64,000 bases of DNA from Maribacter polysiphoniae (GTDB taxonomy: Bacteria > Bacteroidota > Bacteroidia > Flavobacteriales > Flavobacteriaceae): the NCBI RefSeq assembly GCF_003148665.1, contig NZ_QGGQ01000001.1, positions 141,762 to 205,761 on the forward strand, written 5' to 3'. Position 1 is the stretch's first letter. Every line of letters begins with the position of its first letter. The translations under genes were made by a program, and so were the position numbers. Below are positions 57,345 through 60,177 of the stretch, in pieces. The notes under the pieces were generated by a model. That model was not told where the DNA came from. It saw only the letters and a list, made by a program, of their open reading frames with translations, and did not search any database.

Positions 57345-58205
57345 TTAATTGTTGAGTGCCTCTGCACCGCCAACAATCTCCAGAATTTCACCGGTAATGG
57401 CAGCCTGTCTAGCCTGATTGTATGTCAATTTCAATTGATCCCTTAGCTCAGTTGCATTATCCGTGGCCTTGTGCATCGCTGTCATACGCGCACCGTGCTC
57501 ACTAGCAAAGGAATCCCGTACCGCTTTGTACAACTGCGTCTTCAGCGACTTCGGAATCAACTGCTCAATGATATCAACCTTGGAAGGTTCAAAAATATAA
57601 TCGGCATTGGAACCTTGGTCACCTTCCGCCGGAACGATTGGTAAAAATTGCTCCGTAGTTACGATTTGTGTAGCGGCATTCTTGAATTTGTTATAGACGA
57701 GTTCTATACGATCGTAAGATCCGTTTTTAAACAACCCCATCAATTCCTCAGCAATAGCGGCAACATTCTCAAAGGTCAAATCTTCATAGACATCACTATG
57801 GTTTGCCGTAATTGTACGTTTCTTACCTAGAATATCATTGGCTTTCTTGCCTATCGCCATAAAATCGACTTGCTTTCCTTGAAAGGTTTCATCAGCCAAA
57901 AATGTACTCTGCTTTAGAATATTGGTATTAAAGGCTCCACACAAACCACGATTTGAGGTAATTGCAACTACCAAAACCTTATTGATCGGTCTGTTATCCG
58001 CATATGTACTACCCGAATCAGCATCCATACTTGCACTTAAACCCTGTAAAAGTTCAGTAAGCTTATCTGAATATGGCCTCATGGCGGTAATTGCGTCCTG
58101 TGCCTTCTTCAACTTTGCGGCAGATACCATTTTCATGGCACTGGTAATCTGCATCGTTGATGATACCGATGATATTCTGTTACGTATTTCCTTTAAGTTG
58201 GCCAT
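57345..58205 (-). CDS. atpG: ATP synthase F1 gamma subunit
   Basis: Central rotor stalk of the F1 motor, 286 residues. MANLKEIRNRISSVSSTMQI at the N-terminus and the C-terminal ITGEILEIVGGAEAL are diagnostic; SNRGLCGAFNTNI is in the middle. It is separated from atpA by the 377-bp cassette listed below and is the last gene before the operon terminator. Confidence 0.97.
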   Translation of the reverse strand: MANLKEIRNRISSVSSTMQITSAMKMVSAAKLKKAQDAITAMRPYSDKLTELLQGLSASMDADSGSTYADNRPINKVLVVAITSNRGLCGAFNTNILKQSTFLADETFQGKQVDFMAIGKKANDILGKKRTITANHSDVYEDLTFENVAAIAEELMGLFKNGSYDRIELVYNKFKNAATQIVTTEQFLPIVPAEGDQGSNADYIFEPSKVDIIEQLIPKSLKTQLYKAVRDSFASEHGARMTAMHKATDNATELRDQLKLTYNQARQAAITGEILEIVGGAEALNN

Positions 58206-58220
58206 TTTTATAAATTATAA

Positions 58221-58597
58221 GTTGTGAATGATGAGTTATGAGTTTTTTATTATTGCCACTAAAATTCGTATTAACTCTTCACATTTTTTCCTCATCCCTT
58301 TTGGTACTTGCCTACCGGTTGCTTCTAAAATATCTAACCAATACAACGTTTCGTCTGCCTCCTTAAGCGCAATACCAAACTTATGTTTAAAATCTTTTTT
58401 ACTAACTCCTCTTTGTGCTTCCTTAGTATTTGCCCAATACTCGTTCCACTTTTTAACAACTGGGATGCTAGTTCAAAATCATTATTTTTCTTTAAAATAT
58501 CACAGTATAGAACAATATCACAGGCAAACTGAAAGCTTTTAATCTGAATCGGACTCTCATTCAATGTGCCCATAACCCTGCACTCATAATTCTTAAC
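58221..58597 (-). mobile_element. Inverted-repeat-bounded cassette with IVP gene, between atpA and atpG
   Basis: Sixteen-nt imperfect inverted repeats bound the segment: GTTGTGAATGATGAGT at 58221-58236 and, on the other strand, GTTAAGAATTATGAGT at 58597-58582; 13 of 16 bases match. The right repeat begins on the last base of the atpA stop codon. Inside is only the four-helix-bundle gene. The structure resembles intervening-sequence elements of 23S rRNA genes, which carry the same protein family, but it sits in a protein operon. Mobility is inferred, and no target duplication was identified. Confidence 0.6.
58236..58573 (-). pseudogene. Four helix bundle protein (23S rRNA intervening-sequence protein family), frameshifted
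   Basis: The frame from ATG 58573 reads MGTLNESPIQIKSFQFACDI to KSGTSIG (residue 47), matching the S23/IVP family, then diverges. In the next frame the family sequence resumes with ANTKEAQRGVSKKDFKHKFG and continues to a stop at 58236. One extra base at the GGG codon (58433-58435) restores a normal 112-residue protein. It is thus a pseudogene by single-base loss in a G run, a sequencing error, or a frameshifting site. IVP proteins form pentamers of unknown role. Confidence 0.85.
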
Positions 58598-60177
58598 TAG
58601 CTTCTGTATTTTCCTGTTAGGTCCTTACAAACTGCCGTTAATGTATCGGTAACCTCATCGGTCAATTTACCTGTTTTAAGCAAATCCAACACATTCCTAT
58701 GTTTGGCATTCATGAATTCAATGAAATCCTTTTCAAATTCTTTCACCTTTTCTACAGGAACATCACGTAATAGGTTCTTGGAACCAGCATAAATAATGGC
58801 TACCTGATCTTCCACGGTAAAAGGATCATTCTGGGCTTGTTTTAGAATCTCAACGTTACGACGTCCTTTTTCAATAACGTTCAATGTTGCAGCATCCAAA
58901 TCGGAACCAAACTTGGCAAAAGCTTCCAATTCCCTAAACTGGGCTTGGTCCAATTTCAAGGTACCCGCTACTTTCTTCATTGATTTTACCTGGGCGTTAC
59001 CACCTACCCTAGACACAGAGATACCTACGTTAATCGCGGGACGTACACCTTGGTTGAATAAATCCTGCTCCAAGAAAATCTGTCCGTCGGTAATAGAGAT
59101 CACGTTTGTTGGGATATAGGCTGAAACGTCACCTGCCTGGGTCTCAATAATAGGCAAGGCCGTTAAGGAACCTCCACCTTTTACCATAGGTTTTAATACA
59201 TCCGGTAAATCGTTCATATCTTTTGCGATGTCATCATCGGCAATAACCTTTGCCGCACGTTCCAACAATCTTGAATGCAAATAGAATACATCCCCAGGAT
59301 ATGCCTCACGTCCCGGTGGACGTCTTAATAACAATGAAATCTCACGATAAGCCACCGCTTGTTTTGATAAATCGTCATATATGATCAATGCTGGTCTACC
59401 CGTATCCCTGAAATACTCTCCGATCGCAGCACCTGCAAAAGGAGCATATACCTGCATTGGTGCAGGGTCAGAGGCATTTGCCGCTACTATCGTAGTGTAG
59501 GCCAAAGCACCTTTGTCCTCCAATACCTTAGCTATGGCTGCAACGTTCGACGCCTTTTGGCCAATAGCCACATAGATACAATACACAGGGTTACCTGCAT
59601 CGTAAAATTCTTTTTGGTTTAGGATGGTATCGATACATACTGTAGTCTTACCCGTTTGACGGTCACCGATAACCAGCTCCCGTTGTCCACGACCTACAGG
59701 AATCATAGCGTCAATCGCCTTGATACCCGTTTGCAATGGCTCTGTAACCGGCTGGCGGAAAATTACCCCTGGTGCCTTTCGCTCCAATGGCATTTCGTAA
59801 AGTTCACCGGAGACAGGACCCTTACCATCGATGGGAGCCCCTAAAGTATTTACTACTCGACCAACAATACCTTCACCTACATTAATAGATGCGATACGCT
59901 GTGTACGTTTTACAGTAGCCCCTTCTCCAATTTCCCTGGAATGGCCCAAAAGTACAACACCAACATTATCCTCCTCCAAGTTCAAAACGATACCCTCAAG
60001 GCCTCCTTCGAACTCAACCAATTCACCATATTGGACGTTTGATAATCCATATACCCTTGCAATACCATCACCTACTTGCAATACGGTACCTACTTCATCC
60101 AACGAAGCGGTTGATTCAAATCCTGATAATTGCTGTTTTAAAATTGCTGATACCTCAGCGGCTTTTACTCCTGCCAT
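58597..60177 (-). CDS. atpA: ATP synthase F1 alpha subunit
   Basis: Non-catalytic nucleotide-binding subunit of F1, 526 residues. The P-loop is GDRQTGKTT (about residues 170-178), and [17 protein letters not shown] near residue 366 carries the alpha-subunit signature and arginine. [17 protein letters not shown] is in the N-terminal barrel. It lies 44 nt after atpH; its stop codon abuts the cassette. Confidence 0.98.

Follow-up and report, generated by a model that had tools for sequence, protein, structure and literature searches.

Matched heptad arms flank a four helix bundle gene at the atpA–atpG junction of Flavobacteriaceae: a decaying and probably exchanged IVS-like cassette in Maribacter polysiphoniae

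In many Flavobacteriaceae, the junction between atpA and atpG is occupied by a cassette that consists of a left heptad arm, a sense-oriented gene for a four helix bundle (4HB) protein of the S23/IVP family and a complementary right heptad arm. At this site, each arm type is associated with its own protein clade and the type of the cassette departs from the host tree, copies break and get deleted, and the same design recurs at many other junctions, most of which have a 4HB group of their own. The conclusion that we regard as most secure is that the gene and its arms make up a single unit, which is tied to one junction and whose type does not track the host. We consider it fairly probable that the atpA–atpG segment in the stretch of 64,000 nucleotides analyzed here (the window) is a decaying copy of such an IVS-like, site-locked and exchanged cassette. 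The features of the junction are as follows:

58597..60177, minus strand: atpA (F1 alpha), upstream neighbour (TIGR00962, 772 bits)
58206..58596, minus strand: cassette, the entire atpA–atpG intergenic stretch of 391 nt, compared with relatives bearing other inserts between equivalent gene ends
58582..58598, minus strand: left arm (the 5' one on the coding strand), which overlaps the stop codon of atpA (inverted-repeat scan)
58334..58573, minus strand: 4HB gene, frame open from its own ATG, with about 40 residues matching the family and then a frame break (ORF list and profile matches)
58242..58433, minus strand: C-terminal portion of the 4HB gene, lying in a different frame (profile match, G000:C1:200003-200194)
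58208..58246, minus strand: right arm, heptad-periodic stretch directly before atpG (inverted-repeat scan and lag-7 scan)
57345..58205, minus strand: atpG (F1 gamma), downstream neighbour (TIGR01146, 316 bits)

The inverted repeats that an earlier note on this DNA had described at the ends of the segment are real; as measured here, the arms at 58220-58236 and 58582-58598 are 17 nt long and 82% complementary. The sole family match inside the cassette is indeed the 4HB/IVP gene on the minus strand, which scores 27.9 bits against TIGR02436, above the curated cut-off of 24, and 24.2 bits against Pfam PF05635, below the cut-off of 33.8, because only part of the protein is in frame. What had been overlooked is that the gene is broken, with TIGR02436 matches in two frames (58430-58546 and 58242-58433). 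Intact copies occur in relatives. No nuclease, recombinase or reverse transcriptase was present among the Pfam and NCBIfam matches in the cassette, and no known RNA family was found at the junction, where two matches below the gathering score both lay outside the cassette. The atpA stop codon occupies 58597-58599 and the left arm covers its last two bases on the coding strand. Insertion exactly at the stop codon, as had been proposed, is correct for the window and holds only loosely elsewhere: across 78 loci, the 4HB start lies between 12 and 109 nt from the stop of atpA. Taken by itself the arm pair is unexceptional, as a scan of 601 nt gives 20 inverted pairs, one of them 19 nt long at 79%. 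The significance of the arms comes from the comparison across 74 loci, in which the left arm of a near-identical relative (L008) found its best partner among the 74 right arms in its own, with a score of 16. The junction of another genome, G005, is 97% identical to that of the window. The right-arm stretch is the longest of four lag-7 blocks in the 64-kb window, and the window as a whole has no general preference for period 7, since blocks at lags 6 (13), 8 (12) and 9 (13) outnumber them.

The 74 loci from the host family comprise 29 from a TIGR02436 profile search, 40 from fetched sequences and five further ones, and for each of them the left flank was scored against the reverse-complemented right flank in cognate and non-cognate pairs. 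The mean arm score was 17.9 for cognate versus 10.9 for non-cognate pairs, with a maximum of 12.4 among 5000 permutation means, and control windows 240 nt further out gave 9.2. Single loci are often weak: 22 of the 74 rank first and 12 lie above the 99th percentile of non-cognate scores. A phylum-wide draw of 28 loci, three of them from the host family, gave 16.3 versus 10.2 (permutation maximum 12.7), and eight of these loci rank first. Five-base words repeating at lag 7 occur at a rate of 45 per 1000 positions in the arms when one locus is taken for each of 26 sites, and at 1.2 per 1000 further out; shuffles yield 2.8, with a maximum of 4.9 in 50. For the 28 phylum loci the corresponding rates are 16.7 in the arms versus 5.7 in the control windows, which are not flat (at lag 14, 7.2 per 1000 versus 19.6 in the arms), and at some sites the period peaks at 8, 9 or 17 rather than at 7. 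The arm sequences are locus-specific, matching their own partner and differing between sites. In the 69 open atp loci, words of the arms also supply codons, TTATG serving as the start of the 4HB gene in 37, CATAA as its stop in 41 and both in 24.

This anatomy resembles that of the IVSs, insertions in rRNA that commonly lie in 23S helices 9, 25 and 45, are cut by RNase III and in some cases carry an S23p ORF, according to the accessible text of PMC4990558. For the Coxiella 23S IVS, the same text describes two or three GACAGAT heptads, depending on the strain, before the S23p ORF, an RNase III site at the first heptad and decay of the ORF, and it calls the role and origin of IVSs unclear since their description about 1990 (PMC4990558). 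The atp cassette shares with the 23S rRNA IVSs of Coxiella and Leptospira the sense-oriented S23/IVP-family ORF, the complementary ends able to form a stem, the sporadic presence at conserved sites and the decay of the ORF; heptameric direct repeats before the ORF are a detail shared with Coxiella and do not define the class. Unlike these IVSs, it lies in the junction of a protein-coding operon and not inside a 16S or 23S rRNA gene, and its arms vary from site to site. Location in rRNA is the defining feature of an IVS, and we therefore speak of an IVS-like cassette. The earlier reading of the segment as IVS-type architecture, i.e., matched arms around a sense S23-type gene, in an mRNA instead of an rRNA is borne out.

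The closest rival to the cassette reading, which we regard as a possible though doubtful one, is that the segment acts at the RNA level as an IVS in an mRNA: the arms would pair in the atp transcript, RNase III would cut the stem and the separated alpha and gamma messages would be present in a changed ratio. It is favoured by the similar anatomy and the cut at the first heptad in Coxiella (PMC4990558, as far as accessible) and by the orientation of the 4HB gene, which is co-oriented with both neighbours in 77 of 102 loci; the upstream neighbour is on the opposite strand in four and undecided in 13, the downstream neighbour in four and 12, respectively. This sense bias points to co-transcription. 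Furthermore, MFE folds, computed with no shuffled control, show the two arms paired over at least 8 bp in 56 of the 69 atp loci with an open frame, and a local hairpin of at least 8 bp is seen in 18 of the 69. By eye, a second stretch resembling the right arm is visible just before the 4HB start in L107, L112, L119, L133 and L155, so that the left arm could pair either locally or across the gene. Selection for a stem in the sense RNA should give an excess of G-U pairs, and such an excess was not found in cognate arms: 113 G-U stand against 138 A-C mismatches in the 124 of 140 loci scoring at least 12, about the same ratio as in non-cognate pairs (1373 versus 1712), which counts against such selection. 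Duplex strengths argue in the same direction, the sense duplex being the stronger one in only 24 of 71 loci at non-atp sites (Wilcoxon p 0.004) and no difference between sense and antisense appearing at the atp site (sense stronger in 36 of 69). Mean duplex energies at the atp site are -26.2 kcal/mol for cognate and -26.7 kcal/mol for same-type non-cognate arms, whereas cross-type duplexes reach -21.8 (type 1 left with type 2 right) and -10.8 kcal/mol (type 2 left with type 1 right; the types are described below); at the other sites the cognate mean is -33.8 versus -22.8 kcal/mol. Excision of the cassette from RNA is a live but unsupported idea.

That the cassette is exchanged at its site, as we prefer to read it, is suggested by a comparison of relatives. 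A protein scan for the atp site found 99 relatives, of which 80 were kept; it used conserved peptides and hence favoured intact genes. All 80 carry the 4HB gene at atpA–atpG, 78 in the main set and two in loci at contig ends (L114 and L121), and a rule-based call assigns a full open 4HB frame to 69 of the 78. The 45 nt before atpG define two arm types, one AACTC-like (type 1, 58 loci) and the other AATTC-like (type 2, 20 loci). In a tree of 66 intact 4HB proteins with a start codon (112 columns), in which half of the inner branches are unresolved and the branch between the types is starred, the arm types form two clades separated by a single change, compared with a minimum of 12 changes in 200 shuffles. 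On the tree of AtpA plus AtpG for the 78 loci, the type changes 12 times; 300 shuffles give 13-20 changes with a mean of 18, and the types are thus scattered yet partly clustered. Type 2 as a single host clade is rejected (p-AU 1.6e-5), and the 4HB data reject clades of Kordia (p 2e-4) and Aequorivita (p 2e-5); the corresponding test for Aquimarina was not significant (p 0.074). With both types pooled, 4HB and AtpG distances correlate with a Spearman coefficient of 0.108, within the permutation range (maximum 0.200 of 999). Within type 1 the coefficient is 0.51 and within type 2 it is 0.34, values reached in none and two of 999 permutations, respectively, so that descent inside the types appears to be largely vertical. 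Differential loss from an ancestor with both types may serve as an alternative to exchange; no atp junction that was read held both types.

These data also bear on the possibility, unlikely in our view, that an ordinary host gene is inherited vertically beside atpA and that its hairpin arms are only signals for translation or stability. Its occurrence in many genera and the host-like distances within types are in line with such a gene, as is purifying selection: the median dN/dS is 0.088 over those 94 of 105 close pairs for which dS was finite, many of them near synonymous saturation. This selection could equally reflect a function for the host. The 12 type changes on the host tree contradict simple vertical descent, and so do close relatives without the gene or with broken copies. 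In the sister species of Aequorivita represented by L171 and L175, a type 2 cassette in one and a broken type 1 cassette in the other lie between atpA windows that are 93-99% and atpG windows that are 93-100% identical, which already disfavours the host gene; the flank windows were compared ungapped, and in three of 11 pairs the atpA side fell out of register and was left out. Among 11 Kordia genomes, three carry type 2, four carry type 1 and four a gene-less insert with TTGAGTA heptads, all flanked by an atpA end and an atpG start that differ little among the genomes.

The genus of the window is represented by 12 genomes, nine of which gave a junction match. A type 1 cassette is present in G000, G003 and G005 and a GAATTC-type cassette in G009, and the 4HB gene is missing at the junctions of G006, G007, G008, G010 and G011. 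G006 retains approximately the last 30 nt of the 4HB gene together with the right arm, and G010 aligns as a more degraded remnant; for these two junctions, deletion is therefore a better reading than a site that was never occupied. A search of relatives that was blind to intactness matched 55 of 60 genomes, and 30 junctions were fetched. Seven of them carry the 4HB gene, which is open in three (L008, L011, L012) and broken in four, by frame breaks in L007 and L009 and by stops in L010 and L029. The other 23 lack it, again in conflict with a vertically inherited host gene, and have atpA–atpG gaps of 3-138 nt, four of at most 21 nt and many with another short hairpin as judged by eye. The comparison of relatives' junctions that the earlier note had called for thus revealed gene-less sites, deleted copies and different cassettes. 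In three loci from the same genus (L015, L018 and L024), the gap contains no heptad cassette and has instead another hairpin-like stretch, in which the words TTGTCATTCCTGC occur.

Beyond the atp site, TIGR02436 is present in 113 of 149 genomes of the host family and in 114 of 148 genomes of the phylum. The genome of M. polysiphoniae has six profile matches at four places, namely L001, L002, a copy on C10 (L003/L005) whose second part contains stops, and the atp-site copy. By eye, each of the four lies between its own, different arms, L001 being low in the arm test (score 10, rank 45). The search for further copies that had been suggested therefore succeeded for the design and failed for shared end repeats, each site having its own matched pair. 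When sites are defined by flanking genes, 26 groups including the atp site are obtained, and among the 64 loci at recurring sites, 53 have their best 4HB match at the same site, where 6.4 would be expected. At a site that we take to be fadB–fadA (18 loci), the 4HB gene correlates with neither neighbour (Spearman 0.10 and 0.08, values reached in 194 and 305 of 999 permutations), while the two neighbours correlate with each other (0.36; one of 999 as high). At the metH site (10 loci), it tracks the upstream gene (0.60, 0 of 999) and not the downstream gene (-0.13), and the neighbours are mutually uncorrelated too (0.09). In L044 (G069), L077 (G071), L092 (G025) and L100 (G028), metH is split in two and, judged by coordinates, the 4HB cassette lies between its parts. 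Most of the metH matches listed are split near model position 320, many of them without room for a cassette, and the split is therefore independent of present cassettes. In Kordia, nine of the 15 examined loci, including an overlapping pair, have heptad arrays without a 4HB gene, and heptad arms are thus not exclusive to 4HB cassettes; the gene-less arrays or hairpins with no 4HB match are L202, L206, L207, L208, L210-L213 and L215, and L212, which overlaps L215, contains a long run of GAATTAT heptads.

REP/REPIN and MITE elements have short inverted ends and gene-less forms, REPs being GTAG/CGTC-tagged palindromes of 20-40 bp and MITEs having terminal repeats that are conserved among copies. 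The cassette shares the inverted ends and the gene-less forms, and an element of this kind, moved in trans by a transposase that recognizes hairpin ends, would also agree with the heptad inserts that lack a gene, seen both at the atp junction and at other places, and with arm mismatches that are symmetrical between the strands. We nevertheless think it improbable: in contrast to REP/REPIN and MITE elements, the cassette carries its own gene, and its arms differ between the genome copies (by eye) and between sites, which leaves no common end for recognition. Most 4HB groups stay at one site, and the strong sense bias likewise speaks against such an element. A classical transposon with uniform terminal repeats was rejected, as the arms differ between copies and sites.

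TAACTGA heptamers precede start codons in Beggiatoaceae, Cyanobacteria and five Bacteroidetes (MacGregor 2015, PMC4679880); as far as the accessible text goes, they share with the cassette the intergenic heptamer arrays just before start codons and differ from it in consisting of one fixed heptamer in direct repeats, and "S23" or "four helix" gave no match in that text. PF05635 resembles Avd of diversity-generating retroelements in the accessible part of PMC10053308. Such elements have a reverse transcriptase and template/variable repeats close by, and no sign of a retroelement was detected in three window proteins scanned against Pfam and NCBIfam. In Flavobacterium columnare, a four helix bundle gene between those for guanylate kinase and nicotinate-nucleotide adenylyltransferase is listed under phage elements (PMC5524665, accessible part) and may be another junction cassette. 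In the partly surveyed open-licence PMC literature, we found no description of heptad-armed 4HB cassettes at operon junctions, and the accessible portions of PMC5041132, PMC11637426, PMC13392368 and PMC8700078 contain nothing on them.

From the distribution patterns, we infer that the cassette is mobile. Our best guess is that it would persist as a site-locked, largely selfish element and that replacement from related donors would take place through some form of homing or through recombination in the conserved ends of atpA and atpG. F1 needs one gamma for every three alpha subunits, and an insert placed before atpG would therefore, as we propose, cost little and be tolerated. With less confidence, we suggest that the arms may pair up in the transcript and that RNase III may cut them, as it does in rRNA IVSs. 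More speculatively, and with considerable reservation, S23/4HB cassettes could constitute a homing-like mobile class of which the rRNA IVSs are a special case. Each clade would be locked to one orthologous operon junction, the 4HB protein, probably a pentamer, would recognize its own heptad arms, and the cassette would spread between species by junction conversion in a cycle from intact to broken, deleted and replaced. The closest solved structure by sequence to the 4HB protein is 2RLD, a five-chain entry.

An IVS-like design is thus found at defined operon junctions of many named genomes, and because sister species are in different states, mobility, the specificity of the protein for its arms and RNA processing are directly testable. 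Many Bacteroidota genes labelled "four helix bundle protein" would also be accounted for by the cassette design.
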